Shown one piece after another: positions 8,242-27,983 of a stretch of 64,000 nucleotides of DNA. The stretch comes from Letharia columbiana (taxonomy: Eukaryota > Ascomycota > Lecanoromycetes > Lecanorales > Parmeliaceae): contig NW_023501051.1 of NCBI RefSeq assembly GCF_014066305.1, positions 248,001 through 312,000 on the forward strand, written 5' to 3'. Below the pieces are notes generated by a model, which saw only the letters and a program-made list of their open reading frames with translations, searched no databases and was not told the DNA's origin. The translations under genes were made by a program, and so were the position numbers. Numbering within the stretch: position 1 is the first letter of the stretch; every line of letters starts with the position of its first letter.

Positions 8242-9561
8242 ATGGATAACCAGAAGCTAGTAGCAATTTGCAGGCACGACTTACGATTGGAAGAAGATTA
8301 CGACATTGCTCGACTAATCAGAGAGGTCAAAATAGTACAAGAGGATTCGAGCGACACCTATGCCAGGCTCACTAGAAAGCACAGAATCAAGGCTCGGGAG
8401 ATATTGTCCGGGTATATGTTAGCTTGGGAATATGTGGAAGACCTGGACGGCTCAGGTTATGGCCAACGCTTCTGGCTGTGCGTGTTTTCGGAATCCGTAT
8501 TTCCTCTTCTGAACCAAACCTTGAGTCTCGAGACACGCCTTGGGAGTGTTCACTCTCTAGACGTTTCTCAAGGCTCGCTAAACTCCCTCAAACAAGCAAG
8601 ACTGACCCTGAATCATAATCCAGAGGGAAGTCGTCTCGTCCCGATGCTCTTATCTGGCCTGAGGATAAGAAGAAGTGGTGTGCAATGACAAGCTTTCAGC
8701 TCAACATACTGATATATGCTAGGATCCTCGCGGGCGTCGAGAAGATGTTCAACGACTTGCAGGACTATGCAATAATTGACCGGCAGAAGAGGAAATCACG
8801 GCCAATACCAGAGATTGATAAAAAAGCGGTAAGTATACGTCGATGAGCAAAATTCCCACATCTGACACCTAGTGCCTGGAGTCTAGGATGCCGGAAATGA
8901 CCCACCTCCACCGGGTGCACAATCAACATTTGGACCACCAACAAAACATGGTAGTAGAAGGGATAAGCAACCCAAGACTGATGTCACCCTGGTCCCATAC
9001 AACGTGGCTCCTATTGCCCAAGATGCAAAGCCCGGCGAACGAGCCGCCAGCCAGAAGGAGGAGCCAAAGAAAGCAGCCAGCGAGGAGTCCTACGACGTGG
9101 ATCCCAGTACGCGACCAGAAGGAGCCGTCACCGACGAGTCTGGCGAAGAGACACCATCCAGGAAGAGAGCATTAACGCCTCCGTACATCCCAGAAAAGGG
9201 TCTTCACCAGACATGGCCAGCTTTCGGGTTCAAGATCGTCAGTAAGGAAGGAGCTCGGGCTCTAAGAAACCGGGCTGTAAAGATCGACGACTCCGAAGAA
9301 TCAACGTCTAAGACTACTCCCATGACGCCCCGTAGATCCAAGGGCTCGAGGGTGAAGGCGAACCGGAAGCAGGATTCAGCAGAGAAGAACTCCAGCACTG
9401 TATCTGCAGAGAGAAGCGAAGAGGAACATATCGATATCGAGGAGCCGAAAAAAACTGGGAAGGGCCGCCTCCCCAGCTTACCAAATTCGCTTTTGACTCG
9501 TCGTCAAGCCGCATCGGCGAAAGCAACTGGCAATGGCAGCCCGAGATCAGAAGATGATTGA
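8242..9561 (+). CDS. Unrecognised basic, low-complexity protein
   Basis: Three exons: 8242-8477, 8624-8828 and 8887-9561, 371 aa; both junctions keep frame. The first half is ordered: residues 1-80 contain YDIARLIREVKIVQED and AREILSGYMLAWEYVED, then exon 2 has WPEDKKKWCAMTSFQLN followed by ARILAGVEKMFNDLQDY. The second half is disordered, Lys/Glu/Ser rich, with a conserved-looking aromatic patch (ALTPPYIPEKGLHQTWPAF) and several basic runs compatible with nuclear location. No family is recognised. Intron 1 (8478-8623, 146 bp) is a member of the repeated intron family described in the findings; intron 2 is an ordinary 58-bp intron. The frame through intron 1 is open by chance, so a naive call ends at 8688. 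Confidence 0.75.
8478..8623 (+). repeat. Introner-like element copy 1 (intron 1 of the gene at 8242)
   Basis: 146 bp running exactly from a GTGCGT donor to a CCAG acceptor. Ungapped comparison with 26073-26219 shows most of the first 86 positions identical, including CTTGAGTCT, GAGACA and CTTGGGAGT blocks. The branch region is ACTGACCCTGAATC, about 15 nt before the AG. Removing it joins the two protein halves in frame. Confidence 0.85.
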
Positions 9562-10289
9562 GCAAACGGCGAAGCCAGCCTCTCAGCAGTCCCGAGTAGC
9601 GATGGCCCAGCTGTTCAAAGGTCTCCAAAATCCCTCAGCGAACACCACTAATTTGCAAATGAGAGAGTGAGAAGGGCCCAGAGAGGGTACATCGAGTCAC
9701 GCTGCCCGGACGTTATGAAAGGAAACTGTGGACATGGAGGACTAAGAAGTAGGCTTGTGAGTGGTCAAGCAGTCAGCAATGGGATATTGCGTAATGAAAG
9801 ATTCACCAGATCAAAGGACCAAATGCACTTGTGATCGTGAACTTGCCAGCCGGCTCCCAATTCGTGCCATGTCCGAGACAGTAATTCTTGCACAGCGCAG
9901 CAGACATAGCTACGAATGCTTCCCCTGAGTCCAACAACTCGGCTAACGGCTGCTGCAGGTTCATAGCTGAATGATGGAAGATTAGAAGTGAAATTCTTAT
10001 AGACACATTAGCAACAGCAGCACGAAAGCTAGCCTCCTCGAATAACGTTCCTTCACTATATGCTTCAGGCTTCGATCCGTAGATTGCGCACCATCAAGAG
10101 GGACCAAACGCATGAAATCGGGGAGGCCTTCTCCGGACAGACGATTCAATCATCGAGGTTCGAATAGAAGTTCTTTATTGCTCCTGAGCGTACGTAGCTA
10201 CGGCCGCTGCATAGCAAGATCATCCTTCGTTCTGCCCCTGCTTCTTCACAACATCCTTCCCTTCTGCCACCCCCCTCAAATCAATGAAC
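9562..10289. other. Int​ergenic, no gene seen
   Basis: 728 bp between convergent gene ends (gene at 8242 on +, eL37 on -). Nothing protein-like on either strand; a GGTTCGAATA word near 10159 is not part of a tRNA cloverleaf. Confidence 0.5.
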
Positions 10290-10871
10290 CTACGCTGGAT
10301 TCGTAGTCGTCCCCCTCGCTCCCTTTGGTGCACCAGTCTGGAACCCATTCTTGAACTTGCGCGGCACCTCCTTCATCGAGCGCATGCGGCCGGTACCGGT
10401 GGTCTTTCTTCGCTTGGCTTTCATTCCCCAGTTGTCTGTGGAATACGAGTTAGATATTGGTGCGCAATAGCGGCTGGAGAGGAAGGTTGTAGGTGGAAGT
10501 GGATGAAGATTGAGTGCGATTATTCCGAGGAGATTTCAAGGATGGAGAGAGCGTACATTGGCGGATCTTAGCAGCAGGATAGCCACATGACGAGCACGTG
10601 TGCTTCTGGATGTGAAGAGAGCGGCGACCTGGGACAGATGCGATTAGCAAGGCGTTCGATCCATAAGAGGGCCTCGCAGTTGACGGATGTTTGGGCCTGG
10701 GAAGCCAATTTTGCTATGACCAACGCAGAGGAGATGGACTGAGCTTACCGCAGCGTCTGCACAAAGTGTGAGTCTTGTTATGGCGTTTACCAAAGGACGA
10801 GGTACCCTTCGCTATTTGGAGGTCAGTTGCGACCCTTTTTGGCTTGTCCCGGGCTTCTCGAACGCACTCAT
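10290..10871 (-). CDS. 60S ribosomal protein eL37
   Basis: Zinc-binding protein of the large cytosolic ribosomal subunit. Four exons on the minus strand: 10868-10871, 10749-10811, 10557-10628 and 10290-10435, 94 aa. The first exon holds only ATGA; the junction gives [19 protein letters not shown]. The zinc site is CRRC followed by CSSCG, then [17 protein letters not shown], all matching the family. Introns are 56, 120 and 121 bp. The C-terminus ends in [10 protein letters not shown]. Upstream at 11027-11051 are two motifs also found in the other ribosomal-protein promoters of this window. Confidence 0.96.
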
Positions 10872-11294
10872 CTTGGGCTAGGTTGTCTATTGTACTATAT
10901 CAGCCATAGAGTGATGGTCATTTGTGGAAGGATATACATACCCTCTCGCGATGTCAATGTGGTGGCTGTATGGGTGGTCGTGAACTGGTAAATTTGGAAG
11001 ATTGACGTGCGAAAATCTGCCAAGACCTCGCTTGATTGTCATTAGCGCCCGCGATTTAGTCGTACCGGCGCCCGCAGATTACGGACTCACAGAGTCTGTC
11101 CCTCGGTCTTCAATTACTTTACTCTTCTCGTTGTCATTTCTTTATCAGATTGACAGCGGTGGAGCTGAATGATGGCAAGTGACTCTGTATTAGCACGAGT
11201 TTATATTCGTTCATGGATTCTTTCCTTCGACCAAGGCTCCGCTAATGCAATCTACCCAGTCTTCATCCGGCTTCCAGTACCGGACTCGAGACGC
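10872..11294. promoter_or_regulatory. eL37 promoter region and ELP6 3' flank
   Basis: 423 bp between the eL37 start and the ELP6 stop, both on the minus strand. Contains ATTAGCGCCCG at 11041-11051, the exact complement of an 11-mer in the eL21/uS4 promoter, and CTCGCTT at 11027-11033. No gene seen. Confidence 0.5.
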
Positions 11295-12235
11295 TTAAGC
11301 ACCCCTCTCAAACACCTTCACTCCGCCATCCGAGCCTACATAGTACAGGCATTCCCTCTCCTCTACATCTCCCTCATCTCTCGACTCCTCGGCTCCTTTG
11401 CTAATCCTTAGGACACCACTGACATCCTTCGCCACGCCTGTATCGAGTCCCCTCACGCTCAAGATCGATCTCGCCTGATGTGCTAAGCTCATCACGAAAG
11501 CTGTGTGAGATATTTCGAGAGGCGTAGTGGGCGATTGAGAAAGGGGCATGTCGGCAGCTGTGGCAATAATGGTGGAGTAGACGTGCTATTTCTCGACACC
11601 TCCGTTGAGCGAGTGCATGGAGCCTGTAGATGGAGAAAAGGCGTACCTCTCTGAGTTCACCAATCATATCCAGCATCCCCAGCACCTCCCACCCTGTAGC
11701 CGCAAGCAAGAAGTCTAAGCCGTCTAGCATCAGTATAACGTTGCCTCCGCCGGTTGGAGTCTTCTTGCTCCCAATAGCCTTCATGATCGCTTTCTTCACA
11801 TCAGCTAACCCTCCAGCACCCATGCCTAATCCATTACTCAGAGCATCAATGAGATGCACTCTCTGGAAATCGATGCCCTAAGAGCGTAGGTGCCGATTAG
11901 CTCTGGTCCTTTTCGTGCATTCTTCTACCACGTAGATACCACGTGGATACCGAGATAGAGGATGTGCTCACCAGCTTCCGTCCGCTCTCCCTCCACCATG
12001 CCCCATCCCTGAGCCAGCTCACCAGCACTATCCTTTGGTCGAAGGGATCACCCTGAGTAATGTGGCAATCATGGCCAGTGCCGTAGCCCTTGCTCTTCAA
12101 TGTGGCACATACGAACCGCAAGACCAGCCAATTTGTTGTGGCGCCGAGGGTCGAGGTGAGAAGCGTGAGAGAGGTGCAAGGATGGGCGGAGAGATTGGGA
12201 GATAGCAAAGGGGGAATCAGTGGCTGCGATGGCAT
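11295..12235 (-). CDS. ELP6: Elongator complex subunit 6
   Basis: Subunit of the Elp4-Elp5-Elp6 ring of Elongator, which supports wobble-uridine modification of tRNA. RecA-like fold without a catalytic Walker site. Three exons on the minus strand: 11972-12235, 11647-11877 and 11295-11585, 261 aa; introns of 94 and 61 bp, all phase 0. Recognisable blocks are LTLLTSTLGATTNWLVLRFV, VLVSWLRDGAWWRESGRKLGIDF, NVILMLDGLDFLLAATG, and near the C-terminus HTAFVMSLAHQARSILSVR followed by DVSGVLRIS and YYVGSDGGVKVFERG. The start ATG at 12235 fits family length. Confidence 0.85.
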
Positions 12236-12754
12236 CTAGGGCGGCTCAGCGGACGATGAAAGGGGTGCACGAGTCATTATTTTTGGGTACGGTCGAGAAA
12301 TATCGGGGTTTGTTTTTGTTGGCAAGAGAGGGACAAATTCGGCTACGTTGATCAGAGCATCATGTTAATCTACGGTGTACAACCATCACATTTCTACGCA
12401 GCTAGAGTCATTCGAATGTTTTAACGGGTTCTTGATTTTTTAAGTCTTTCTTGGAAAAACACTCGATGCGTTAAGCAGCTAGGAAAGTAATGCGTGAAAC
12501 GTAATGGTTCGTTCGTAGCGGATGTGTCTTCATTCTGGCTTGCGATTGGAAGCGTCGTGCTCCTCGGTAGGCTTGATGACATGAAACAAACAGGTCGTAA
12601 AGCTATCTTCCACAGAAGATGATCGATGTTACGATATCGAGACCTTGATTCAAGCCGACCATCGTACTGTTACACGTCAGTGTGTGTACCCAAAAGATTG
12701 TGAAAAATGGGGCACATACCCTGAAAATGCACCCCTCCTCAATTCATTCTCTCC
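12236..12754. other. Intergenic between RdRP 3' end and ELP6 promoter
   Basis: 519 bp upstream of ELP6 and downstream of the RdRP gene. No reading frame of quality. Should hold the ELP6 promoter and RdRP 3' UTR. Confidence 0.5.
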
Positions 12755-15700
12755 TCACGATCCCGGTACCGCGTCATCTTCGGCAATCGTTGCCAACTGG
12801 TCAAGCAAGTTACCTTTGGTATCAATAGACACCATCACTTCGTCTGACTCAGCGTCGCTGTCACTGGAATAGCCCACCTCATTGTTAGCTTCGTGATTGT
12901 TCTCCTCCTCTTTCATGGTTCTCTCCTTTTCCTCATCCCTTTCCACCTCATCGCTAAGGTCGACCGTTGACAGCTGACTTGTCTTAACTGCCTGCTCTTC
13001 TGCTCTGCCAAAGAACACATCCTCAAGAGCTTTTTTCTTCTCTTTGTGGAAAGATTTCAACTTCCGGTCTTCTGGCTCGTCCGAGGGAGCGGACAGACCC
13101 ATCATCAGATCAGTCAACAGTCGTAGATTGGATCCTTCAGGTATGGTGCAATCAGACTCGACACTGAGATCCTTGTCATCCCCCAAGGTTCCTCCAAAAA
13201 ACGCCTCGTTGAGCGCAGCAGTCTGCTCCTCTCCGGCTAGCCGTGCTACTTCTATCCTCCCTTGACTGTCCAAGGGTCTTTCTGATCCACGGAGATGGCT
13301 AACTGACCTAGCCGTAGACTTGGAGTTGCCCTCCACTGATGCTTCAGGATTGTAATAATGGTCATCATGAAACTTCCGAGCCAGAAGCTCCGGTGAGCTC
13401 GAAGACGAAAAATCAATCAAGCCCTCGTTCGCCGAAGAGCCGTGTTCCACGCTCGAGCCCATTGATGAGTTGAATGACTTAGCGCTAATTGAACTAGAGG
13501 GTATATATTCCGCCGCGGTAGGCCTGTCACGTTCGTAAGACTCTCTGGACCTTCCGAAGAGCTCAAGCAATACTCCAGGATGTGTAGTGTCCTCTGAGGT
13601 CTCCAAATAGTCGCTCGAATCTAACATACTAGGACCAACACGACTCGGCTTCGGTTGAGGTGCCTTGATCTCATCCGGTGGGACTGCGGCCTTCGAGCCG
13701 ATTTCTCCTCGCACGGAAATTGGACCCTCGGCCTCAGAAGTATTGCTCTTTGCAATCTTGCCAAGGACGTCCTGGAACAGCCATGGAAAACTCATCAAAG
13801 GCATGGCAGATGCCGTCATCTCTCGTAGGGGTCTCGATTGGCCGCCAACGAGCTGAACGCGATGACATTCTTCGACAGCTGCGGTCACTTCTCCGGCCGT
13901 GACTTCATACATGGCTGCAGCGAATGGACCGATATGCTTGTAGTCTTTTCCTCCGGCACGCTCATGGCATATAAGTCGAAACTGGTCTTTGAGTGCCATG
14001 GAGATCTCTCCAATCTGCTCATGGTATTTAAACGCATTGTTTGTACTCGAGTGCTGCAACACGAAGGTTGACCAGACCTCAAACTCGGTTTTGATCTCCT
14101 GCTGCGCCATGATGCGACGCATGTGCGCATCGTACTCGTCTTTGATCTCACGCGCACTCTGGAGGATGTTCTCATCGAGTCTGTATGCTCGTAAGATTCG
14201 CGGGTCGAAAGGCGCAGTGAACGCAGGAACAAAATCTATGCGTTCAACTTGATCGTAAAGTTGTCCCAGCACCTTTTTCGATGTGTAGATCTGATGCTGT
14301 TTTTTGCCGACCTTCTCCATAAAATGAGGCCATTTCAGAGGCTCTAGGTCGCGGGTCAACTGAGCTGGTTGACCAGTCTTGACGTAATCCACAGCCATAG
14401 AATGAAGATTGGCAAGCTCCAGGCCTAATCGATAGTCAGCAATGTAGAAGATAGATACACTCGCAAAACATACATCTCGCTTCCTTCACGCCTTCTTCCA
14501 AATAGTCGGCATTTGCGGTATGGGCATGCGCTATTCGCGCCAAGGTATCATTTTTCATGTAAGTCACAAAAAAGGTCGTCAGATCGTCGATCCCAATGTT
14601 CTCGTTGGGCTGTTCCATAGGAGGTCGAGAATAGTCCATGGCCTCATGGTTCCACTCACTAGGCAACAAGTCCTGGTCCCAAATGACGAGGAAATCGTCT
14701 CCATCTAGATCGCCCCCAGAACACATTCCCGCAACATCTCTGTCACCCGTTTGAGGCAGAACTACTACGTCTTTCAGATGGTGAAGCTGTGGAACGTCCA
14801 CACCGCAGACAACTCGAACATCTCCTGGATGGAGAGAAGGGTTCCGAGCGAGCAGCATTGGTCCGAGCATGACTTCAGGTCTTCCGTCAGAGTTTTTGGA
14901 GATTTGAACAAAAACCTGTGGTACATGTCTGGCCTTTTCATCGTTGGAAGCGTCTGCTGAGAGTTTTGGACTATCGTTGAAGTGGCCTCGAAGAGTTGCC
15001 GTTTCGTCCACACAGCCCAAAAGGAGAGCGCCGGAACCGATCGTTATCCGCGCCTTCTCTTTCAGATATTTGATGGACCATGCTCGCCACAACTGTAACA
15101 GAGAAGTCACGAACGGTTCTCTCGTCTTCTGAAAACCGTCCAATACCATGCTCGCGACAGTCAGCGTCATTTGATTATGATCGATTTCTTTTTGCAAGAT
15201 AGCCAATGCCATTGTCTCGTCAGTCATAGCCCGCTCGAGTCGTGACAACTGCGTTTGCAGCTTTCGAGCAAACACTTGATCCGGGACCCCCAAAGCAGAT
15301 AGAATCAATATAAGTTGGCGATTCAGATTGGCGAAAGCGTATTGAGACCATCGGATTATCTCCAAGTTCTCGTCCATCGCAGGGAATTTGTACTGGCTCT
15401 TGCGAATATGAATTTGCCTTCCAACAGAGTCCGGGGAAATGGCGAGCACGCCCTTACAGCCGCCAACACGAATCTGGAACACACTTGGCGGATCTTGGGA
15501 GTGTTGGAGTATACCCAATTCTGACGCCGCAAGATAAGCAAGGAATGGAGAAATTCTACCCACGCCGTCCGTGAAATTGTGTCCGTTGCGTCTGATGTCC
15601 GGGATCTCAACCGTAATAACCCGTGCACCGTGTATTGCCCGTGTAGTCGAAAAGCATTGGCCAAGTCGAGAAGTATAGAGCGCCACGGTCTTGATCTCTC

Positions 15701-18297
15701 TGAACATTCCCATCCATTGTCGAATCTTCTCTGTAGTCAAATTTGGCAGGGGAGCGAAAAAGTATGCTCCATGTTCTCGAAATTGAGAATTTCCACAAGC
15801 TAGAAACTCGTATGTACGATCGCCAATTCTGATACCGTTGGTCAATACTCTCTTAACGCGGGTAAACACTTCGTTCATCGTATCCTTATGGGTTGGATGT
15901 ATCTTGCCCTGTCCCGATAAGTTTCGTCCACTGCAGCGTTGGGAAAACGTACCTCTGTTTTCTCCTCCGTGAATCGGACACGAAGAAATCGGTCAGCGTA
16001 TTGGGAATATTGGCGTATTACACGATTTGAAGTCTCCGCAACTGGCGTTAGGAAATGAACAGTCGTTGGTGTAACCGTTGCAGAACGGACATAGGCGCAG
16101 TAAGATGGAATTCTGGTTCTGGAAAGCGAAGCCTTGCCATTTATTGCCTGTAGCAACAACATCGGATCGTAGATACGATTCCCATGATTAGCAATGTACT
16201 CGAGAAGGTCCTGAGCTTGTTCGACGTTCATGTTCATGAGTGTCGTAATGAAGTGTTCGCTCAGATTGTGCTCGTTCAGAAATCCTTGTGAGAAGCAGAC
16301 CTCGAGTTGATAGCGGGCTTCAAACGCCATCCGTGGCTTGTTGGCATGGATCATCTCCTCCAAGCCGGTTCCTTTGTTGCTTCGTTTCTTAAGTGGTAGG
16401 TCGATGAGCTTCCAGACTGGGGCGTCGCGTTTCGAAGTGATGTAGAAATTAGGGAAAGGTACAATCTCAATATTATAGTCGCGTAACGCTTCACGCATTT
16501 GGTCGAACTGTGGTAGACCATTCTCCGGACTATTGAAAACCAAATGATAGGTCGTCCAGCGTCCTTCCATAGGTCAGTCACGGGGTCTTGTGCAAAGGAT
16601 TAATGCTTACCAAGGTCGATAATCGGATTTGTCTTCTTCCAAGTCAGGGAAGACTTCTTCAGATCATTGGGTACGTATACAAGATCAGTTTGACGATACC
16701 ACGCATCGTTGTCGCCCCATGTCACTGCTTGATCATCGTGACTCTTCGAAGGATCCAGCTGCTTGAAATACTTTGGTGGTGTCTCCATGGAGATGAGAAG
16801 GATCAATTTGTGTCCTTGTCCCTCTATTCGGTGAATCACCTTCAACTGGGTGAAAGGAATCCGAAATTGGAAGAGCTCTGTCCTATCGTACTTGCCTCTT
16901 CGCATGTTTGGGTTGTTAGAAGTCGCTCGTGGGTCCACAATGTGCATCGGGAACTCGACCGAGATCTCCTTGTGGAACATATTCATGCAAAACTTAATCC
17001 CAGTCTCTCTAGTTGGCAGCACTCTACGCATGTTCATCATCGTTATCTGATCGAACATAGTGCCAAAATCCAGGGACTCAGCATACATGGTCTGAGAGAT
17101 GTTAGTTGTCGTAGAATCACTGGAATACAAGCAGCATACCATGGTCTCCGGGTATTTGCTCTTCGACTGGACTGGAAGAACCGATTGTTGGCGAGTCTCG
17201 TTATATACCCTAACAGATATTGTACGACCCCCAGCAAGCTGTATCGAATACTTTCCACGCTTCCAGAAAGCCTTGGCTGGTGGTGGACTACCACCTCGTC
17301 AGTTATTGCGATGGCGCGGACATGAACGATATGTGGAAGCGTACCTGAACTTCACTTTGGCTCCGCCATCTCGATGGCCTTTCGCATTTTGGTAAAGCCG
17401 AATGTGCGCAATGTGGCCTTCATGCTTGAAAGCTGTCCATAGATCACGAGTTGTGGCGCTGTCTGGAAGGTCGCAGACCTTGATGAATATGTGTTCCCCA
17501 AGAGCCCAATCATTCTGGATCCTATGGTCACGACGCGTCATCACGGATGAAAGGTGTGAGAAGTCATTCGGAAGTCGTGGCAGTGGATGCTGGACGATGC
17601 TATTGGGCCGACCGTGCGAGGATGATTGATTGTAGACACCATTGGTTATGGTGCTGAAGGGGGTTGGATTCTGGGCATACAGAGACTGTGATGGGAGCAG
17701 ACCCACGGGCTGAGGTGCAGCTTTTTGATGTGCCGATGTCTGGAAAGTCGAGCTCGTGCTGCTGGAAGAGATTGAGACACCCAATCCATTGAGCAGAGGG
17801 GTAGATGGTTTGGTCGACATGTCGCTTGTCTGGTTTCCTGCTTCGAGGGCTTCGGATGCTGCTTTAGCTTCTTGCTGCTTGGCGGCTTTTTCTAGCAGGA
17901 ATCTACGCCTCGCTGCTTTGATGCCTCGGTTGGCTCCACGTCTTCGTGGGCCGCCTGAAGATGAAGCTTCGAATGACTTCTTCGCATTCTGTATATGCTG
18001 TGATGGAGGTAGATTTACTCTGGTGGGGTGGTGATCGAAGGAGCAAGAGGGGGAAGAGGTTGAATTGAGTGAGGAGGATTGTTGTTGTTGATCCGAGTCT
18101 GAATCCGTCATTGAGTCTTTAGCGTCTTTTCCTAGCGGCTTTCTCTGGTCTATGTCGGGAAGTCGCACTGCAGTGTTGTCATCCTCGGAGTCCGAGGAAA
18201 CACAAGCTCGAGGTAGTGATAGTTCGACTGGGCCATCGATGTTACTTCTGCCACCAATCACCGAACCAATGCTGTTCATAGCTTCAGATAACGCCAT
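12755..18297 (-). CDS. RNA-dependent RNA polymerase, RNA-silencing type
   Basis: Makes double-stranded RNA from single-stranded templates for RNA silencing or meiotic silencing. Six exons on the minus strand: 17345-18297, 17140-17287, 16611-17091, 15953-16563, 14474-15884 and 12755-14424, 1757 aa; introns of 57, 48, 47, 68 and 49 bp, all in phase. Order of parts: acidic Ser-rich head; basic stretch (RRRGANRGIKAARRRFLL); RRM-like domain about residues 265-345 (KVCDLPDSATTRDLWTAF ... GAKVKF); RdRP core (NGIRIGDRTYEFLACGNSQF, REHGAYFFAP); catalytic loop GGDLDGDD near residue 1120; CLELANLHSMAVDYVKTG; long acidic Ser-rich tail from about residue 1400. The N-terminal RNA-binding domain fits the SAD-1-like branch better than QDE-1, as an inference. 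Start is the ATG at 18297; an upstream in-frame codon is only TTG. Confidence 0.92.
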
Positions 18298-19458
18298 ATT
18301 GCCGCCCAGCACGTAGGTGTATCTGACTCTACAGCCCAAGTTCAAGAGAGTGTCTGAAGCGACGATAGAGTTCTATGAGTAGAAAGTGATGAAGGAGGTT
18401 ATAAAAAGAAGTGGTGAAGGCGGTTGCGAAGAGAAAGGCGGAGCAGCTGTTTTAGCTTGAAACGAGGGTAATGAAAACAGTATTGAAGGGCAAGAGTGAT
18501 GTTAACGGCAAATTCCGTGCTTATCTCCGTATCCTCAATGACTGCCCTTGAACACCAATGCTCGCTTGAGGACCAGTGGCTCGATCTGTCGGTGTTGATG
18601 TGAAGAGGTGGAAGGAGTCTTTGAGGCGAGTTGGGAATGGCAGAAGATCTGATCTTGATCTTGGTCAATGCAAGCAGAAACCTTTGATCATTGCAAGTAC
18701 TCGATACGCATAAAGTCTAAACCGAATCAAGTCTAACAGTCTGGAGTCCTAGCAGTCCTGTGTGGCCTTTTCCACCAGAAGGCTTCGCATTGGGATTGCT
18801 GAGGAATCAGTGTAGTAGGCGGCGTGTGGGAAGGATGGTCAAATGGACGATGAGGGCAATAGAAATACATCAGGAAGCCCACCGCCAGGGATCAGAGATT
18901 CACTATAGGAAGTGAAGGCTTGGAGGTCCCTTCTACCATGGTGTTGAGAGGTCTTCACAGTCTTCAGTCTTCACACTCCTGCCAGTCTTTACAGCCTTCA
19001 CATTCATTCCTAGTCTTCAAAGGTAATTGAGAGCTTTACAGAATGAACAAATCTCTTCCACGGAGTGAGCGACTATGTCGTGGCAGGCTGGTTTGTTAGC
19101 AAATATGGTAGGAAAGGCAAACAAAGGATTCCTTCAATCACGGACATTTTTCTTAGGCGCAGGAACCCGCTATGCCACTCAAGACCCAATCGGAAACACT
19201 GGGCGACCCTCAAACACAGCCTTGGCAAGCACCAATCACAAAACGATTTGACACACCATCGAATGTGAAAGGTCAAAAGGCCATACAGAACCACTCCGTT
19301 ATAAATGGATGCGGATCCGGTTTCAGCAATCTCATCAACAAGATGTGGAACGAGACCAAAGGTCAGTAGCACCGGCCGGTGGCTCCTGCACCCAGTGAAT
19401 CCAAGTAGCGCACCTCAATGTTCGATGCAGTTCAGGTTCTAAGTGCTACATCATCGTA
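18298..19458. other. Intergenic, RdRP promoter and 3' flank of the coiled-coil gene
   Basis: 1161 bp with no supported gene. The part at 18948-19020 is a pyrimidine-rich run of imperfect TCTTCACA/GTCTTCA words. Short frames on both strands look random. Confidence 0.5.
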
Positions 19459-22400
19459 TCAGAACTCCGTGGTCGTCTCATCGTATTCGTGTCTCGGCAG
19501 TTTGCTGCGCAGCGCAGGAATCTGTTCTTGTTCGGTGCTTGTGAAAATGTCCCCTCCGCCAAAGGACTCTTCCTCAGAGTCAAGATCCGGAGATACTTGG
19601 TCATTTTCTGTGGGTATTTCCCCAGCGCCGTCGGTTTTTGGGGTATAATGTTCTCGAGATTTTGGATTTTTTAATGCTAAAAGACCCGGACTCTGCGTTG
19701 ATCCGAGGTCACCCAGTGGGACTCTACCAACTCTCATAACGCTGCGCTGGTGCTCTTTCGATGTAATAATAGACTTCGAACTTTTCGTTGCACGGGTTGT
19801 CGGAGTCCTAGAGTCCTGGTGTCTCTTGATGCGCTTAGGTGCTCTGCTGGAAGCGCTGGAGTTGGGTGAATGCAGTGATTCGGCGGCTGTCAGATCTGGA
19901 CTATTCGCACCAGACGAGGGTAGATCACGCTCGTCATGCCCTAGAGTCCTCAACTCTGCCCCATGAGATGATGTTTGGCGCTTGGTGGTTCCCATAAGGG
20001 ACATAAGGCGACCGCTTAGCTCCTGAGCTTCTGCAAACTCTCTAGCCCGCTCCTGTCAAAAATTCCAGGATTAGCATTTCTTGTTTCAGACTTGGATGTC
20101 TGTACACTCCTGAGTCATGTCTCACGGCTCCAAATTAGGCGCCATGAGTGCAGTATAGATTCCAAAAATACATACCTCGCGCTCTTTGCGAAGTTTGCTA
20201 ACCTTGCTCTGTAGGCCAGCGATCGTCGCCGCATTCTGCTCGCTGGCTGCTGCAGCCCTCCTGTGCGCCACCTCAAGCTCGCTTTGCCATTTGTCATTCG
20301 AAGATCGATTAGACTCGTCTAAGCGCTCAAATTCTGCGTCTTTGGCAGATACGTACGTCTCGTGCTGCAATCGCAGTTCGGATGTGTCAACTTCCACGTT
20401 ACGAAGTTGAACCTGCAAGGCTGAGATCAGTGACTCGTTCCGGTCAGATGCTTCGTTCACCGCAACAATAGTACTATTCAGCTCTTCAATGAGGGCCTCG
20501 TTGTTGCTGATCTTCGCGGTATTGCGGGCATCTTGTTCTTTTGTTTGATTCAATTCATGTTGAAGATCCTGGACACGGCGTTCCGAGGCGGAAATAGCAT
20601 TGTTCAATGTTTCGATGTGTGTCTCCCTGTTGTTCAACTTCTCGGCATTCTTGGCATCCAGCTCTCTCATACGGTTTATTTCATATTCAAGGGAATTGAC
20701 ATGATTCTCAGTGCTGGCAAGCTTCAAGCATTGCTCCTCAAAAACCTCATCTTTTCCCGTCATCGTAGCTAGGCACGCGAGGTCTTGTTGCCTAGCGCTT
20801 TCGATGGCAGCTTGTGCTGCCCGTTCAGCTTCGATCTTGGCATGGTCGAACTCCTGATGGATATTGTCGAGACTTGTCCCTAAATCTTTCAATCGTCTCT
20901 CGGTCGCCTCAACCTGATTGGCGAGACAATCTCTTTCAGTCTCTAGGGCGCTGAGGGTTGATTGGCGGTTTCGTGCCTGAAATTCCAATCCAGCGTTCTT
21001 TTGCTCCGAGCTTTCCAGCCTTGCTTGAAGGTCACGAGAATTTGATTGTTCCTCCCGAAGAGGACGCTCACTTTCGTTACACCGAAGCTCAAGGTCCCTA
21101 CAGATCTCACCGACCATTCTGATAACACCCTCATAACGACAATCTACGTCTCTTGACATTTCTCGTATAAGGCCGTCTCTCCAATTAAGGCTAACGGAGT
21201 CCACACGCGGCGTACTGACAGCCTCGAACAAGGATATCTTGGGCGTTGTGAGGTTCATCGATCTGCGTTGATTACACTCCACAGAGGCGGGCTGAGTAGA
21301 AGAATGAAAGAACTGTTTCTCAAGCAGCAACTCCATAATGGATGCATCGAAATTACCTCCACATTTTGAAGCGTAAAGTGCAGATTTCAGAAGCATAACC
21401 GCAAGACTTTGGTGGAGTCGTGCTTGGGCTTCACTGTAAGATATCGGGCAGACGTCTATGGTACTGTGGCCATGAACGAATCCCAAGCGCATGGTTCCTT
21501 GCACTTGAGAGGCGTATTGAAGGACCATGTCCGAGACCGCGTTGCTCGAAATGGACTGCAAGACTGCTTTGAGTAGCTTCGATGACGTGGAAATGCTTTC
21601 CGTAAAGACAGAGATCAACCGTAAGGCATTGTCAATTTTCGTCAATGACTCCCTGCATGGATGCCACTTATCACACGCCAACACCAATAGCGACTCCAGA
21701 AGTTCACGTATAGAGGCGTCTTCGAGTAAGACCTGCATCTACTTAGCCACAGCCTGCTTTTCTTGTGCTATGAATGGTCTTACGATGCACTGTCCGATCG
21801 CACTGGCAGATAGATTGTCCGTTTCGGATGTGAGAAGGTGTTTTTTGAGATTCGGAATGACTTCCGGAGGCAACGATTCCCCAGCAGACAGAACAACAAG
21901 GAAGTTCAGTGCCTAGGCAGATGTTAGTTCCTAAGAAACCGAGCACCTCCCTTTATACATACCTCGCATTGCACTCTCGCTTCGACCCCAGACGTAAGGA
22001 TCTTCTCATACAACTTCTTGGTTTTCCTGGTGTTGGCAGCTAGCCAGGAGCTTTTCTCTTTCTTGTCAAAAGCATCCACAATCTCTCTTGAAAGCTTCAA
22101 ACTTTCGACAATCTCTTGTGTACTCAATGGGCAGTGTCGAGAGAATGCTGTGATGGCTTTGAGGACTACCAAGTCAAGCGTTTTCGGGGCTCGTCTCGAT
22201 GAGAAGAACTTTCGAGCGGGAAGAAATCTATCTGCAGATTCGGGTCGAACTTCGCCGCTCGGCGAGGATTGGATACTCGGCTGACACTTCTCCATGCCAC
22301 TTGACCTGGAAGCGATTTTTGCCAAAATGGCCAAACATAGTAGACTGGCCAGATGATTGTCCGAGTCAAGATTGGTCAGCACCTCAACCATTTGACTTTG

Positions 22401-23201
22401 AAAGCTGGAGAGAACATCGCAAGGCAAGATATCCAGATAGCTGGATTCTAGCCCTGATAGTAGCAGGTAGACTGGTCTGATAGTCTCAGGGGAAAGCGAT
22501 TGGGTGGCCTTCTCCAGGCATTTCATGAGAAAGACAGGAACCTTCGAGGGAATTGGGAGTTCTGACGATGTAGAGAGCAAAGCAACGCAGGTGGCCGCAT
22601 ACTGTATTTCCGTCAGTACTCTGTTGGCGACACATAGGGTAATCTCGGTTGAGTACCTTATCGAAGCCTGAGTTCGAGTCTATGGCGTTGGTGGAAAGGG
22701 TCTCGAAAAGCATTGGCTTCTGCTGCAAGGCAGCGTTTCGGAAGGAAGGAATAGACGCTTGAAAAGATTAGTGAGCAAGTGGCATCTTACTGCTTTTCTG
22801 ATCATACCTAAAACCGTCAAGACATCTATAGTGAAAGGCCATAGCTCAAGACCTTCTAAGACTACGACTTTATGATTTCGGAGTTAGCATTACTCTTTCG
22901 GGAGGAATGCTGAATCACGAGACATGTCTGCCGACACACAGGACAGCGTGAATTGGGAAGAATTGCCTGGGAAATCATAACGTACTGGCCAAGTAGTCTT
23001 CAGGTTTTCGGAGTCAGTATCTCTTCATTGTATCTCGGAACACAAATTGGGGCACGGATTAGGAAGGGAGGTATTGCTCCGAAATGTAGACGTACCAATC
23101 TGACAAGGATTTCCTCGGGCCCACAGTTGCAGAATGCCAACATCAACAATTTGCAGAATGTCATGGAGCTTCTGCTTTCGGGCGTCAGCTTCTCTTATCA
23201 T
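19459..23201 (-). CDS. Large coiled-coil protein of unknown function
   Basis: Eight exons on the minus strand: 23096-23201, 22986-22997, 22808-22867, 22657-22757, 21963-22601, 21784-21912, 20176-21738 and then, after an intron at 20053-20175, 19459-20052. A 45-bp intron (21739-21783) is assumed because the frame otherwise meets a TAG directly before 21738. The spliced chain is about 1067 aa. Residues 1-400 are helical and repeat-like (LEGLELWPFTIDVLTVLASI, VLKAITAFSRHCPLSTQEIV), followed by a very long coiled coil (about residues 520-850: SALETERDCLANQVEATERR and similar) and a basic, Ser-rich tail ending in HEYDETTTEF. The layout suggests a structural or scaffold protein, but no family is recognised. 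Introns 1, 2 and the last one resemble the repeated intron family. The start at 23201 is tentative: a second open frame lies just upstream. Confidence 0.7.
20053..20175 (-). repeat. Introner-like element copy 7 (last intron of coiled-coil gene)
   Basis: 123 bp, donor GTATGTATTTTTGGAATC, acceptor GACAG. Shares GAGACATG..GGAGT and ACAGACAT..CCAAG blocks with the copy at 26073-26219, and its 3' end reads TGCTAATCCTGGAATTTTT, parallel to the CTGACTCCGAAATT end of that copy. More diverged than the DUF7704 copies. Confidence 0.65.
22868..22985 (-). repeat. Introner-like element copy 6 (intron 2 of coiled-coil gene)
   Basis: 118 bp, donor GTACGTTATGATTTCCC, acceptor AAAG. Shares the AGACATGTCT block and a 3' end TGCTAACTCCGAAATCATAAAG-like (positions nearest the acceptor) with the other copies. 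Located right after a 12-nt exon. Confidence 0.6.
22998..23095 (-). repeat. Introner-like element copy 5 (intron 1 of coiled-coil gene)
   Basis: 98 bp. The first 15 bases, GTACGTCTACATTTC, are identical to the start of the DUF7704 intron 1 at 25777, and about 26 of the first 30 match. The branch region ACTGACTCCGAAAA is identical in its first 13 positions to the copy at 26073-26219. Acceptor is GAAG. Confidence 0.7.
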
Positions 23202-23958
23202 TTCACAATTGCGTAAAACGCTCGTAGGACAGAAAGAGGAACGAGAGATCCTTCCTTTCCCCCATCCTTGATCTTAGGTACCTTCAAGCTAGGAGTATAC
23301 GGGCAATTCGTTATGCGATGCACTTCCACACGTAATTCTTCCATCATGCACGGATCGTCCATCTTCTGATGAACTGTGAAGGCCAGGACAATTCGTGTTC
23401 AAAGGTTGGAGGCCTTCTCTCCGGTTATCTTGCCCTGGTTGCCCATCGCAACGACGTTTGGGACGGGAGGCTAGCCCGGACGAATCCATCTCTTGAATCA
23501 AAAGCCTTGGGGGCCTGGCTCGTCCCTTCGAAGTAGCTGTACTACTGCACTGCTTTGCGTCCCTTGGACTATGGCTACTTAAGTGCAAAGGTTCGAGGAT
23601 TGCAGGATCTCTTTAACACGGGGGCGATGAAAGCGGGAACTAGCCCTCTCTTGACTTGCTGCATCTGCCCTTCATTTAAATCTTTTGTCTTCCACTGCTT
23701 CTATAAGATAACATGACAAACCAGAATACTGTCATCTACTCATGATGATAGACTAAGTTCATAGATGATAGCCCGAGGCCTTTTTTTCCCTGTACAGTGG
23801 GGCAACCTGTGGTGGGAGAAGGGGTTGTTGGAAGTACAGAATCAGCTCGTACGAGTACAGAAAGTTCTTTGTTTCTGGAAATTGTGCATGTTGAAGGTCG
23901 ATACAGCTACTCTGGTAAAACATTATGTTCCGCTCTTCGCTTACTCAAAAGAGCCGAC
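23202..23958. other. Intergenic, promoter of coiled-coil gene
   Basis: 757 bp between the coiled-coil gene start and the Myb gene stop (both minus). On the minus strand a frame at about 23205-23300 reads protein-like (KEGSLVPLSVLRAF) and may be an unjoined first exon of the coiled-coil gene. Otherwise nothing supported. Confidence 0.45.
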
Positions 23959-25452
23959 TCAATCGAATGGAAACATGGGCCTCGTAGCCATATCCTCCCA
24001 CGCCAAAGGAGCCAAAGTGAGATTCTCATCCCAATCCCAGTCATTGTGTAAAATCGAATTCGAGAGTCTATGGTCTTCCTCTTCTGTATGGGAAGCTGGT
24101 ACGGTTTTAGAGCCTGTCTTATCTCGCGCGCCCCCATCGCTTTCCTCATTCGCTGGCTCATTCGGATCATCCACCGTCTTCCTTGTCCCTGTTGAGCTCT
24201 TTGCATGCTTTTTTTTATTCGGAGATGTTTGGTTTTCCTTGGGTGAGGCTGTTGAATCCTGCTGCTTATACAGGCCAGGGAATCGCAGGCGGAACCGATC
24301 CCGTATCTGGCCACATGATCTTTGGTCGAAATTCAATGCGGGATCCTTGAGCATGAGATTCCATTGAAATCCATACAATTGGAAGCCTTTTTCAAGCTCG
24401 GTATCTTCCTGCTCTGTCCAGAGACGTTTTGGAGCTCTTAGTGGAGACTTCTTCGCAGTCCCTTTGGTCGCAAATTTGTAGCCAGAGGGTGCTTCTGCCA
24501 CAGCGTTAGGTGTTGATACTATGAGGTAAGTTTCTTTTGTGGCCAAGCGTACCTTGGTCGTCGTCTGGAGGCTCTGGCATTGCTCTAGTCCACTTGTGCC
24601 GTGCGTTCGGGGGGAACACGACGCGGAACCTGAGAAAGATTGATCAGCCGCTGAGTGGGACAGCTAGCAATAGGATGTCATGTACCGATCCTTGAGATCC
24701 ATGTTTGTCCTGCCTTCACGGAAATGCAATTCCGGGTGGTTAAGGATACTTTTCCATCTTCCCATCCCATAGATTGCGACACCTTTGACCAATTGGTCAG
24801 TCTCTTCTTCCGTCCACGCTGTCCGTTCTCGAGTATAGATTCTTTTGGCAGTACAACTGCCAGTAGAGCGCACCCTTGGCTTCCTCTTTCTAGCAGGTGG
24901 ACGCCCGGGATCTTTGGTCTGGTTTGGAGGTTGCCCAGCACCAGAATGATATTTATCATGCTCTTCTTGAACTGCATTTGGCGTTATTGGAGGGAAGAGT
25001 GCTGCACTTGGAGGTGGTTCATGCAGCTCGTTGAGGACCGAGATCGGCTGGAACGGACGCGGTTTATCTTCTCTCAATTTTGTCTGAGGTCGAGGCAGCT
25101 GAACGAAGTCGGCAATTTGTTCATGGTCGTAGAGCTTCTGTTTCTTCCGGGGCCGCTCTTTCGGATGCTCCGTCTCTTGTGCTTCAGGGAGTGCAGCAGG
25201 CTTGGCTGTGATGGATGCTTCGAGCTCATTGTGTTCCGGCGCCCCCAGAGGTTTCGCTTGCGCAAGTGCTCTTTGTCTACCAGTGAGCTTGTTCGCTTCG
25301 TTATCGATGTTGACGCGCGCATTAGGCTCCAACGGAGAAGGTCTTCGCGAAATAATCGAGAGTGGGGGGAAAGGGTCTTGTAGGGGAGGAATCCGTAGAG
25401 AGGGACGGGTTTGGAAATCATCAAACATATCATCGAACATTGGAATATTCAT
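23959..25452 (-). CDS. Two-repeat Myb/SANT telobox-type DNA-binding protein
   Basis: Nuclear DNA-binding protein. Three exons on the minus strand: 24686-25452, 24553-24629 and 23959-24494, 459 aa; introns of 56 and 58 bp. The second intron has a CCTAAC branch site; an earlier AG would leave only 34 bp and was rejected. Myb repeat 1 (about residues 209-258) runs WTEEETDQLVKGVAIYGMGR to TNMDLKDRFR, and the DLKDR motif is the telobox signature. Myb repeat 2 (about residues 305-355) runs LWTEQEDTELEKGFQLYGFQ to IRDRFRLRFPG. This layout is that of fission-yeast Teb1-like factors, which bind telomere-type repeats and some promoters. The N-terminus is uncertain: the frame stays open beyond 25452 without an ATG. 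Confidence 0.8.
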
Positions 25453-25763
25453 AACGAAGTCACAGATGGTCTGGAAACATTGCCCCCAGAGACTCCACGC
25501 GGAATCACGTGATGCAGCAATTTGAGCAGAAGTAGAATTTTCGATCAGTGTTGGTGATGCCTTGCAGCGCCAGGATGCTCGGCCCCGCCAAACGTAACGG
25601 CAGCCAGAGCGGAATCGTTCCGCTCGGCATCGACAATGCTGTTGATGCACAATGTCGATGCTTGTGATATCGCCCGCCAGCTTCAGCTACCGTACTCGAG
25701 GGACCTCCAAATTCACATCCTCTGCGACTCTCCTCTTTGAGCCTCAGCCGATCTACAGCAAAC
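25453..25763. promoter_or_regulatory. Divergent promoter, Myb gene / DUF7704 gene
   Basis: 311 bp between divergent ATGs at 25452 (-) and 25764 (+). Open frames on the minus strand cross it but have no convincing start, so part may be an N-terminal extension of the Myb protein. Confidence 0.45.
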
Positions 25764-26676
25764 ATGGCTACCATTCGTACGTCTACATTTCCGAGCGATT
25801 CCTTCTTACATCTGCACTCCGATGTTTCAACAGAATCGTACTCATCGACCTTGTCTTGTGACTTCTTTTACACCTTAAAGAAGGAATCCTGACTCCGAGA
25901 GCTTGAAGTGCCTCCGATTCCCCGCTTCATCTTCACGGTATTCGAGCCCATCGCCCTTCTCGCTGGCTACCTCTCCCCAATGCTTGATACAACCAGCTTC
26001 GTCAATTCTCAACTTCCCGCAACCTCAGTCACCACCGTATTGCCGACAGCGACAAACCGCGTCCTGGCCCTTGTATGTATTTCCGGAGTCCGTCTTTCCT
26101 CCATTGGACCAAGTCTTGAGTCTGGAGACATGTCTTGGGAGTTTCTACTCTGTAGACATATTCCAAGGCGCAATGCAAAGTTCTCGAATAAGCAGTACTG
26201 ACTCCGAAATTAAAATTAGCAACTGGGTAATGTATACGGACTTCTTGCTATGGTTGGTGTTGGCATTCTTTACGCCACAACAGAAGCAAAAGTCGTGCGC
26301 AACTTTCTACTTGCCTGCGCCATTGCCGACGTAGGTCACCTGTACGTTACGTATGCAGTAATGTACGTATTTTTGACGTTTATGTTGCATTCTTTAGACT
26401 AAATCTTGAATCTTGAGAGATATCTGGGAAGTTTCTACCCTTTTGGACATGTTCGAAGTCTTGATATACCCTCTATGAAATGCAATAATGACTCTGAAAT
26501 TATAATCCAGGGGTTACATGGACTTCATAGATGTGCAAGGATGGAACTCAATGGCGTGGGGCAATATTGGGGTTACGCTTGGGCTTTTTCTGACCAGGGT
26601 ACTGTACTTGACGGGTTTTTTGGGGCAGGATAAAGTGGTCAATAGCACGAGAAAGACAGTCAAGAAGAATATATAG
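25764..26676 (+). CDS. DUF7704-type four-TM membrane protein
   Basis: Small integral membrane protein found across Pezizomycotina; function unknown. Four exons: 25764-25776, 25909-26072, 26220-26362 and 26511-26676, 161 aa. The first exon holds only MATI plus one base. The chain continues LPPIPRFIFTVFEPIALLAG (TM1), then LGNVYGLLAMVGVGILYATT (TM2), KVVRNFLLACAIADVGHLYV (TM3) and GNIGVTLGLFLTRVLYLTGF (TM4), ending in a basic tail. These blocks are typical of the DUF7704 family. All three introns (132, 147 and 148 bp) belong to the repeated intron family, and no ordinary short intron remains. Without removing them no frame longer than about 140 codons is seen here. Confidence 0.88.
25777..25908 (+). 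repeat. Introner-like element copy 2 (intron 1 of DUF7704 gene)
   Basis: 132 bp, donor GTACGTCTACATTTCCGAG, branch region CCTGACTCCGAG, acceptor GAAG. Its 5' end matches the coiled-coil intron at 22998-23095 and an internal CTTGTCTTG block matches the copies at 26073 and 26363. Confidence 0.75.
26073..26219 (+). repeat. Introner-like element copy 3 (intron 2 of DUF7704 gene)
   Basis: 147 bp, donor GTATGTATTTCCGGAG, internal TTGGACCAAGTCTTGAGTCT and GACATGTCTTGGGAGTTTCT blocks, branch region ACTGACTCCGAAATT, acceptor TTAG. Best reference copy of the family. Confidence 0.88.
26363..26510 (+). repeat. Introner-like element copy 4 (intron 3 of DUF7704 gene)
   Basis: 148 bp, donor GTACGTATTTTTGACG, internal AATCTTGAATCT and TATCTGGGAAGTTTCTAC blocks, branch region AATGACTCTGAAATTATAA, acceptor CCAG. 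Aligns end to end with copy 3 just 143 bp upstream. Confidence 0.88.
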
Positions 26677-26933
26677 GAACGGGTAGCCATTACCTTGACG
26701 AATGTGGTTGCAGACATAGGCGAATTAAGCGGGAATGTCTATGTAGGTTGAAGGTATGCCGCCATTAGGGGCTAGGATGATGCCCTTGTTGTTACGTCGT
26801 CGTCCAGCGTAAAAGCACGGCAATACTTCGAACGCAGTTTGAATCTTCTGTAAAGCTAGGGTCTAAGATCTGAAGCCAAGCTGGTTGTGCCAGGCTATTC
26901 CTCGCTTCGACATCCTACGATGTCCTCCGTAAC

Positions 26934-27983
26934 CTAGTGACCTGCAATTGCATATGCACGACGACGATCCCTCTCCTCTGCAATTGATAGCTATTCACAA
27001 TCAGCATGTTGTCACGTGATTGCGTAGAACAGCTCCACCACTGTCGTACCTTAACTCCTTTACCCTTAGGCAGACTGATCCATGGCTTCTCGTTGCCAAT
27101 GACAAAGACATTAGTTTCCCGAGTAGCAAAGGAATTGTCTATGGCATCCTTGATGTGCACAATGTTGAAGCCTCCATCGTGACGCTCGCGATGTGTGATC
27201 ACACCAACACGGCCCATGTTACGACCACCTGTTGCCATTGCAATAACACCAGTATCAAAGCGAATGAAGTCGCTGATTTTGCCTGTCGATAGATCGATCT
27301 TGACTGTGTCATTCACTTTGATAGCAGGGTCCGGATAGCGAATCCTACAGTATGACTTCCAGTCAGCACCTTACTTAGGAATGCCACCAAAACTTGGTCC
27401 AACGACTGAAAGAGTGCAACAAACTCACGTTCGTGCATCATGCGTAACCAAGAATGGGATTCCACCCTTGCCTAATTGCACCCTCTTGACCTTTGCCAGC
27501 TTGTATTCCGCCTCTTCAGTGGTAATGCGGTGGACTGTGAAACGACCCTTTGTGTCGTAGACAAGTCGGAAGTTCTCGCCAGTCTTCTCGATAGAGATGA
27601 CGTCCATGAAGCCGGCGGGATACGTGGTGTCGGTGCGAACCTTGCCATCGACTTTGATGAGGCGTTGCATGACGATGGCCTTGGTTTCGCGGGAGTTGAG
27701 AGCATACTTCAGTCTGGAAGAAGTTAGTAAGGTCTGCTTGGTTTGGACAAAAGCTGTTCAAGCTCACCGGTTACGGATGAAGACAATGAGTGGCATGCAA
27801 TCTCGGAGCTTGTGAGGACCTGGCGATGGGCGAGGCGCATAGGCACCAGACAGTTTGTCCAGAAGCCAGTGCGATGGCGCGCTGAGACGCTTCTGATGCT
27901 TCTTCCTACAGTGATTTTAGCCAGAGTCTTCTGAGTAACCGGCAATGATGACGAAAATGCTGTACTTACGGTCCGCGACCCAT
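26934..27983 (-). CDS. 40S ribosomal protein eS4
   Basis: Component of the small cytosolic ribosomal subunit. Five exons on the minus strand: 27970-27983, 27768-27905, 27429-27713, 27050-27344 and 26934-26990, 262 aa, the usual length. The first exon encodes MGRG plus two bases. Blocks match the family throughout: [77 protein letters not shown] and the C-terminal [16 protein letters not shown]. Introns are 64, 54, 84 and 59 bp. The 84-bp intron (27345-27428) has an internal TTGGACCAAGTTTTG that nearly equals a core block of the introner-like family. Confidence 0.96.

Follow-up and report, generated by a model that had tools for sequence, protein, structure and literature searches.

Seven long introns in a 64,000-nucleotide stretch of the genome of Letharia columbiana (contig NW_023501051.1 of assembly GCF_014066305.1, positions 248,001 to 312,000 of the forward strand; this whole stretch is called the window, and coordinates are counted from its first letter) are, we propose, copies of a mobile spliceosomal intron, or introner-like element (ILE). 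We put the probability of this reading, with RNA-mediated copying of the excised, hairpin-forming intron as the favoured route, at about 60%. The origin of new spliceosomal introns is a long-standing question and fungal introners are poorly understood; here we describe a superfamily of such elements, consisting of the families A, B and D together with a small family C, for which we estimate several hundred copies in the genome. A preliminary description, made from the letters of the DNA alone, had held that the introns themselves were copied and had set them against the background of the Dothideomycetes: the first proposal is supported by copies throughout the genome, by the reading frame and by uninterrupted sites in relatives, whereas L. 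columbiana is a lichen-forming member of the Lecanoromycetes. The splice borders given below are predicted from reading frame, protein domains and homologues.

Related introns in the window

All seven introns run from GT to AG in the sense strand of their hosts, at the coordinates originally proposed. The three main copies are family A introners on the plus strand: 8478-8623 (146 nt), 26073-26219 (147 nt) and 26363-26510 (148 nt, an older copy). They do align end to end, as had been claimed, with 112/152, 105/157 and 103/152 identical columns in the three pairwise alignments, 10-15 standard deviations above shuffles; this corresponds to 67-74% identity, which is moderate and falls short of the near-identity first reported, and the main three sit in two genes, not in three unrelated ones. 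The first interrupts a gene (gene X) whose upstream coding exon spans 8242-8477 on the plus strand (intron phase 2; the start codon is our choice) and whose open frame, after splicing, runs on as ...GQRFWLGKSSRPDALIWPEDKKKW...; the other two share their host, the DUF7704 gene treated below, with a 132-nt intron at 25777-25908, also on the plus strand. The remaining three lie on the minus strand: 20053-20175 (123 nt, diverged), whose spliced frame KLRKERE|ERAREFAEA is open while the unspliced frame has stops; 22868-22985, an internally shortened element of 118 nt as against about 147; and 22998-23095 (98 nt). Between the last two are 12 nt (22986-22997, minus strand), a possible micro-exon, and the removal of both introns keeps the frame whether this stretch is retained or lost.

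Profile hidden Markov models (HMMs) trained solely on copies from outside the window recovered the family A introns at 8478 (E 1e-35), 26073 (E 6e-39) and 26363 (E 3e-26), the family B element at 22868 (E 2e-28), and, weakly, the diverged relative of family A at 20053 (E 1e-7) and the intron at 25777 (E 1e-5). The intron at 22998 gave only very weak matches to the A, B and D profiles (E just 0.04-0.5), and besides the seven segments the window held no match with E <0.5. The introns at 25777 and 22998 have one genomic relative each (C2:1141961, E 1e-12, and C3:390712, E 9e-12, respectively), all 6 pairs among these four sequences outscore all 300 shuffles, and the two window introns, with these two relatives, form a small separate family, C. 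Thus, of the four further introns that the preliminary description had related to the main three, 22868 stands as a member of family B and 20053 weakly as a relative of family A, whereas 22998 and 25777 belong to another subfamily.

Copies across the genome

As had been anticipated, a genome-wide search found many more copies at unrelated loci, mostly in a sense coding context and with the frame kept. With the intron at 26073 as seed there are at least 40 genomic matches, the seed included, and with 22868 (family B) at least 52 matching pieces; these counts are lower bounds, because the candidates were only partly scored (40 of 48 and 40 of 50, respectively). Patterns of the element ends were counted over the whole genome with the reversed pattern as the control: the 5' end of family A gave 167 places versus 21, the 3' end of family B 50 versus 0, and a 3' end common to the families 276 versus 0. 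The family A pattern is present in 31 of 40 strong A copies that had been found independently of it. For the 5' end of family D the count was 330 versus 87 in the control, with double counting of one element possible, since the D 3' end is a near-complement of the 5' end and the pattern may score an element twice; for this reason just the matches with 0-1 mismatch were used, which list 88 places, without a separate control.

Three profiles were applied to 80 merged regions (311,170 bp), a sample that includes the window and in which the other regions were picked for holding copies. They delimit 153 non-overlapping elements (A 72, D 45, B 36), with GT and AG ends assigned near the profile ends in 148 and not in the other 5. 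We define a strong copy by a score of at least 60 bits and a length of 95-170 nt, which leaves 104 (A 61, B 30, D 13). The profile match is full-length in 74 of these 104, and all 74 start with GT and end with AG exactly there, a count obtained with profiles built from sequences that had been trimmed at GT and AG. Between any two copies, identity reaches at most 90% in A, 85% in D and 94% in B (one duplicated locus pair at 98% is disregarded), so that no very recent burst is seen. The merged regions also yielded 44 weaker elements, scoring <60 bits; they are about as long, and a CTGACTCC-type 3' end is frequent among them.

Orientation, frame and host genes

The preliminary description had the copies in the sense direction of their hosts, and this is borne out: as judged from flanking sequence, the strong copies appear to lie mostly in sense within coding sequence and to keep the reading frame. 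The evidence is of several kinds: (i) in the 73 strong copies whose two flanks (120 nt) were both called sense, the frame shift across the element is 0 in 52, 1 in 10 and 2 in 11. (ii) With 60-nt flanks, the fraction called sense on both sides is 0.56, versus 0.61 in open reading frame (ORF) controls and 0.25 in shuffles, and the fraction called antisense on both sides is 0.067, which is the level of the ORF controls (0.054), versus 0.29 in shuffles. (iii) Neighbouring elements at most 600 nt apart have the same orientation in 34 of 34 pairs, opposite orientation in none, one of the pairs being probably a single split element. (iv) A Pfam scan of 20 spliced hosts, namely the DUF7704 gene and 19 selected for long open flanks, found a domain running across the spliced junction clearly in 18, marginally in one (a methyltransferase) and not in one (a helicase), and the proteins scanned fall in many different Pfam families. 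(v) The spliced aconitase host shows no gap at the junction when compared with the solved aconitase 5acn, the pig enzyme.

At one locus (L066; region C12_1108467, minus strand, 655-945) a single nucleotide separates a family D element from one of family A, an arrangement that would call for stepwise splicing, or for the insertion of one element beside the other.

Sites in relatives and the DUF7704 gene

Relatives had been expected to lack the introns. Absence was read from frames and not from genomic alignments, as the homologue database mixes gene predictions with raw frames; six insertions, from three host genes, were examined in this way. Five of them (the B site of the aconitase gene, the D and A sites of the asparaginase gene, and 25777 and 26073) appear to be absent from the proteins of relatives, whereas the sixth, 26363, is at a position shared with them. 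The aconitase site is uninterrupted in every one of the 120 listed homologues; these include frames of about 500 aa whose start is at the same methionine or close to it. The asparaginase host protein is 99% identical to a Letharia lupina protein. Its D site is continuous in 119 of 120 listed homologues, the exception being a predicted Pseudevernia protein without that stretch, and its A site likewise in 119 of 120, with an insertion in the remaining one. In seven asparaginase homologues a nearby ordinary intron position holds an insertion, as unspliced genomic frames should show, but neither introner site is interrupted.

The DUF7704 gene (25764-26676, plus strand) has four predicted exons, 25764-25776 (13 nt, phase 1), 25909-26072, 26220-26362 and 26511-26676, the last of which includes the stop codon; all four rest on the spliced translation and the last three also on the Pfam match. 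Excision of the introns at 25777, 26073 and 26363 leaves a complete frame that needs no further intron, and the product of 161 aa matches PF24803 over residues 2-146 (E 4e-57). The gene thus holds three introners that differ in family or age: C, A and older A. The frames of relatives are uninterrupted at the first two sites and break at the codon of the third. Indeed, in 23 of 120 listed homologues the match ends exactly at residue 107, the 26363 site, and 22 of these 23 begin at residue 5 or before and therefore run through the sites of 25777 and 26073. Past that codon, 10 of 24 read-through tails beat 99% of shuffles in their likeness to the translated introner consensus (best with family A in 9 and with family D in 1; the top tail has 19/25 identical columns), and the remaining 14 fall short of that level. 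Introner-like tails and the breaking frames together place 26363 at a shared, older position, where it probably represents an early insertion of family A; 25777 and 26073 seem to have been gained later, within the Letharia lineage.

As to neighbouring genes, frames at 26915-27757 on the minus strand, convergent with the DUF7704 gene, presumably encode ribosomal protein S4, and the long open frames at 12755-17298, also on the minus strand, may encode a QDE-1-type RNA-dependent RNA polymerase.

Hairpin structure and target sites

The consensus sequences are 147 (A), 147 (B) and 155 nt (D) long; all three start with GTACGT and have CTGACTCCGAAAT before the acceptor. A typical copy comprises the donor GTACGT, a likely branch site CTGAC and the acceptor, and forms an imperfect inverted repeat over much of its length. 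The predicted folds of the consensus sequences have minimum free energies of -56.2 (A), -47.8 (B) and -71.3 kcal/mol (D), with z-scores of -7.9, -5.5 and -9.5 against mononucleotide shuffles. In D the consensus is paired from nucleotide 2 to nucleotide 154 of 155, so that the two terminal Gs are all that stays unpaired outside the stem. With regard to terminal inverted repeats (TIRs), D has a 17-bp terminal stem and A a near-terminal one, and in B the predicted fold leaves the ends unpaired. A structure common to the three consensus sequences has 110 of 123 cells paired, versus 34-56 in slid controls, and shows double-sided change in 4 pairs, versus 0-2. Within copies, however, the two ends of one copy match each other no better than do ends exchanged among copies (own mean as low in 25, 84 and 9 of 100 permutations in A, B and D, respectively), which suggests that the hairpin may be a property of the spreading form and would not be maintained after insertion.

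Insertion appears seamless. Around the 104 strong copies there were no abutting direct repeats of 5-10 nt, and those of 1-4 nt were at the shuffled level (one copy each for 3 nt and 4 nt, with 1.6 and 0.4 expected); target-duplicating transposition was rejected on these 104 copies.

How the introns may have spread

In the reading that we favour, the spliceosome would remove the element from a host transcript, and the freed intron RNA would fold up as a long hairpin, protected by this structure and with its two terminal Gs next to each other. This RNA would then enter a new exonic site, either through reverse splicing into transcribed DNA or through capture at a break that is being repaired, and the inserted element would be copied into DNA. 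Spliced from the outset, the new copy would be tolerated and could decay into an ordinary-looking intron; the 44 weaker elements suggest that some of the longer introns of the L. columbiana genome are decayed introners. Internal splice and branch sites, seamless insertion, sense orientation and terminal Gs brought together by the hairpin all fit the reinsertion of a hairpin-protected intron RNA; what we infer is that the copies are indeed spliced, that RNA serves as the intermediate, how insertion proceeds chemically and what the hairpin does. Capture at breaks or reverse splicing of intron RNA has been proposed for Hypoxylon (PMC8469720, PMC12403724).

Several observations weigh against this reading. 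There is no direct sign of an RNA intermediate, and two family B copies, L034 and L035, are truncated at the 5' end. Some of the coding tests are less clear than those given above: with 60-nt flanks the frame is kept (shift 0) in a fraction of 0.36, versus 0.48 in ORF controls and 0.08 in shuffles; with 90-nt flanks the fraction called antisense on both sides is 0.087, versus 0.027 in ORF controls; and 10 of 103 copies have no open frame across the junction, the 93 of 103 that do being modestly above random flank pairing (mean 84.5, maximum 93 in 200 draws) in what is a weak test. Coding scores with 240-nt flanks exceed the threshold at 68/104 introner sites versus 833/1500 random window positions; they barely separate the sites and hence provide no proof of genic bias, and the 60-nt and 90-nt flanks with the ORF control were used instead. 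A minority of the copies may be intergenic, antisense, non-coding, mis-ended or in untranslated regions. As for the hairpin, it may be free to decay after insertion, but against a simulation of neutral decay 44/61 copies of A and 8/13 of D have the more stable fold, and B copies the less stable one (6/30).

The target sites also belong here. The 104 strong copies have no AG|G proto-splice preference. Instead, C stands at -2 in 47/104 (versus 29 expected, with phase-matched shifted sites as the reference; p 2e-4), the base at +2 is G in 36/104 (25 expected, p 0.015), and both occur together in 23/104; such a symmetric CN|NG preference would speak more for a step in which DNA is cut than for reverse splicing. 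The dyad, the least expected of our observations, is weak, and was spotted only after 16 positions had been inspected. In the 60 best copies (at least 120 bits) C is at -2 in 27/60 and G at +2, with 15/60, is not enriched; neither base is enriched in the 44 copies below 60 bits (14 C at -2, 8 G at +2), and the preference is not seen in family D (3 C and 3 G of 13). Seventeen newly fetched copies go in the same direction (8 C at -2, 7 G at +2) but are only suggestive; they come from 20 fetched loci, three of which were omitted, for a score <40 bits, for ends that could not be assigned and for want of a listed match, respectively.

The principal alternative is that the elements are non-autonomous DNA transposons with TIRs, similar to miniature inverted-repeat transposable elements, moved by an enzyme that leaves no target duplication, with antisense or untranscribed insertions lost or unseen. 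The inverted repeats that span much of the element, the 17-bp terminal stem of the D consensus, the two-fold symmetry of the weak site preference and the residue of antisense or non-coding calls are all what this explanation would lead one to expect, and introner families outside the ascomycetes mostly look DNA-based (PMC9860276). We consider it possible but distinctly less probable than copying through RNA, since no target duplication accompanies any of the 104 copies, none of the 34 neighbouring pairs is oppositely oriented, the sites are seamless in the proteins of relatives, and both splice sites lie inside the element, unlike in the co-opted-site mechanism of algae described in PMC12403724. 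A more specific and rather doubtful scheme would take something from each side: introns with long-hairpin RNA would enter exonic DNA without a seam, in the middle of blunt CN^NG cuts of two-fold symmetry, the hairpin being selected for copying and largely released from selection afterwards. If true, this route would unite transposon-like ends with splicing-dependent, sense-only copying, without target duplication.

Much less can be said for ordinary copying of segments, in which duplication or gene conversion spread exons together with their introns, making the introns paralogous through their hosts. One case looks like this: the truncated family B copies L034 (C71:262315..) and L035 (C89:71008..) are a single common copy within near-identical duplicated loci. 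This duplication is perhaps a haplotig, because a triploid-like thallus has been reported for a published L. columbiana sample (PMC10512270). In the other copies inspected the flanking exons are unrelated, which led us to reject exon duplication for them, the hosts belong to many different Pfam families, and the tested sites are continuous in relatives; we therefore regard this explanation as very improbable, and it could apply solely to copies with homologous flanks. Least probable of all, to the point of being negligible, is that splicing constraints drove introns of L. columbiana to similar long hairpins by convergence, for although the donor GTACGT and the branch site CTGAC are splicing signals that would be common anyway, the similarity spans the whole 147 nt including the loop, with E down to 6e-39 for held-out window copies, and ends within a copy pair no better than swapped ones.

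Comparison with known introners

Introner-like elements of the Dothideomycetes were reportedly described by van der Burgt in 2012. Those of Fulvia fulva, Dothistroma and Zymoseptoria (Collemare 2015, PMC4457414) are similar to the elements of Letharia in that they are multi-copy canonical introns at new positions in unrelated genes, and in that they comprise several families of different age, decay to ordinary introns and have a stable predicted structure. The Letharia elements appear to share the features of fungal ILEs, with many copies in unrelated genes, ends at the splice sites, sense orientation, newly gained positions and a stable predicted structure. The differences are that Letharia belongs to another fungal class, the Lecanoromycetes, and that its copies are without the AG|G proto-splice preference, whereas van der Burgt's ILEs are credited with an AG/GY preference in PMC8469720.

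The second comparison is with the symmetrical sister introns of Hypoxylon (Fekete 2025, PMC12403724). These also have long terminal or near-terminal inverted repeats, insert seamlessly with no target duplication, function on the coding strand only and bring the terminal Gs together. In particular, the Type-2 cropped sister introns are canonical introns made of terminal inverted repeats without target duplication, and the Letharia elements are alike in this, which is a likeness in how they work. However, there are important differences: (i) the Letharia introns are canonical (GT..AG), and nothing points to a stwintron as their parent, though an internal intron was not looked for. (ii) Their consensus ends differ from the published NTIRE-10 of Hypoxylon, GUAUAAAAAC, and none of the consensus sequences of A, B and D contains the central TTTCTAGAAA palindrome of the Type-2 cropped sister introns. 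(iii) The 5'-GGU start of [D1,2] stwintrons (Xylariales) was rejected for them, G preceding the donor in 32/104 strong copies versus 28 expected from shifted controls. (iv) They have the weak CN|NG preference, and none is reported for the sister introns.

The DNA-transposon introners described from algae and further eukaryotes (Gozashti 2022, PMC9860276) are likewise multi-copy introns, and some families have TIRs, as do the Letharia elements; many of those families have target duplications, whereas the 104 Letharia copies have no target-site duplication (TSD) of 3-9 bp. According to the same source, TIRs and TSDs are both absent from introner families of ascomycetes; the Letharia elements, with TIR-like ends and no TSDs, are a counter-example as regards the TIRs. 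We found no mention of introners in lichen fungi in the PMC literature listings searched, the supplementary species list of PMC9860276, which may name Letharia, being outside the scope of the search.

With families of different ages, strong consensus hairpins, empty sites in relatives and published long-read assemblies of two species, Letharia makes the dependence on the hairpin, the orientation bias and the site preference directly testable. The closest precedents, by likeness of features, are the Dothideomycete ILEs and the symmetrical sister introns of Hypoxylon, and the Letharia elements appear to be a new introner family in a new lineage, of a kind of element that is already known.

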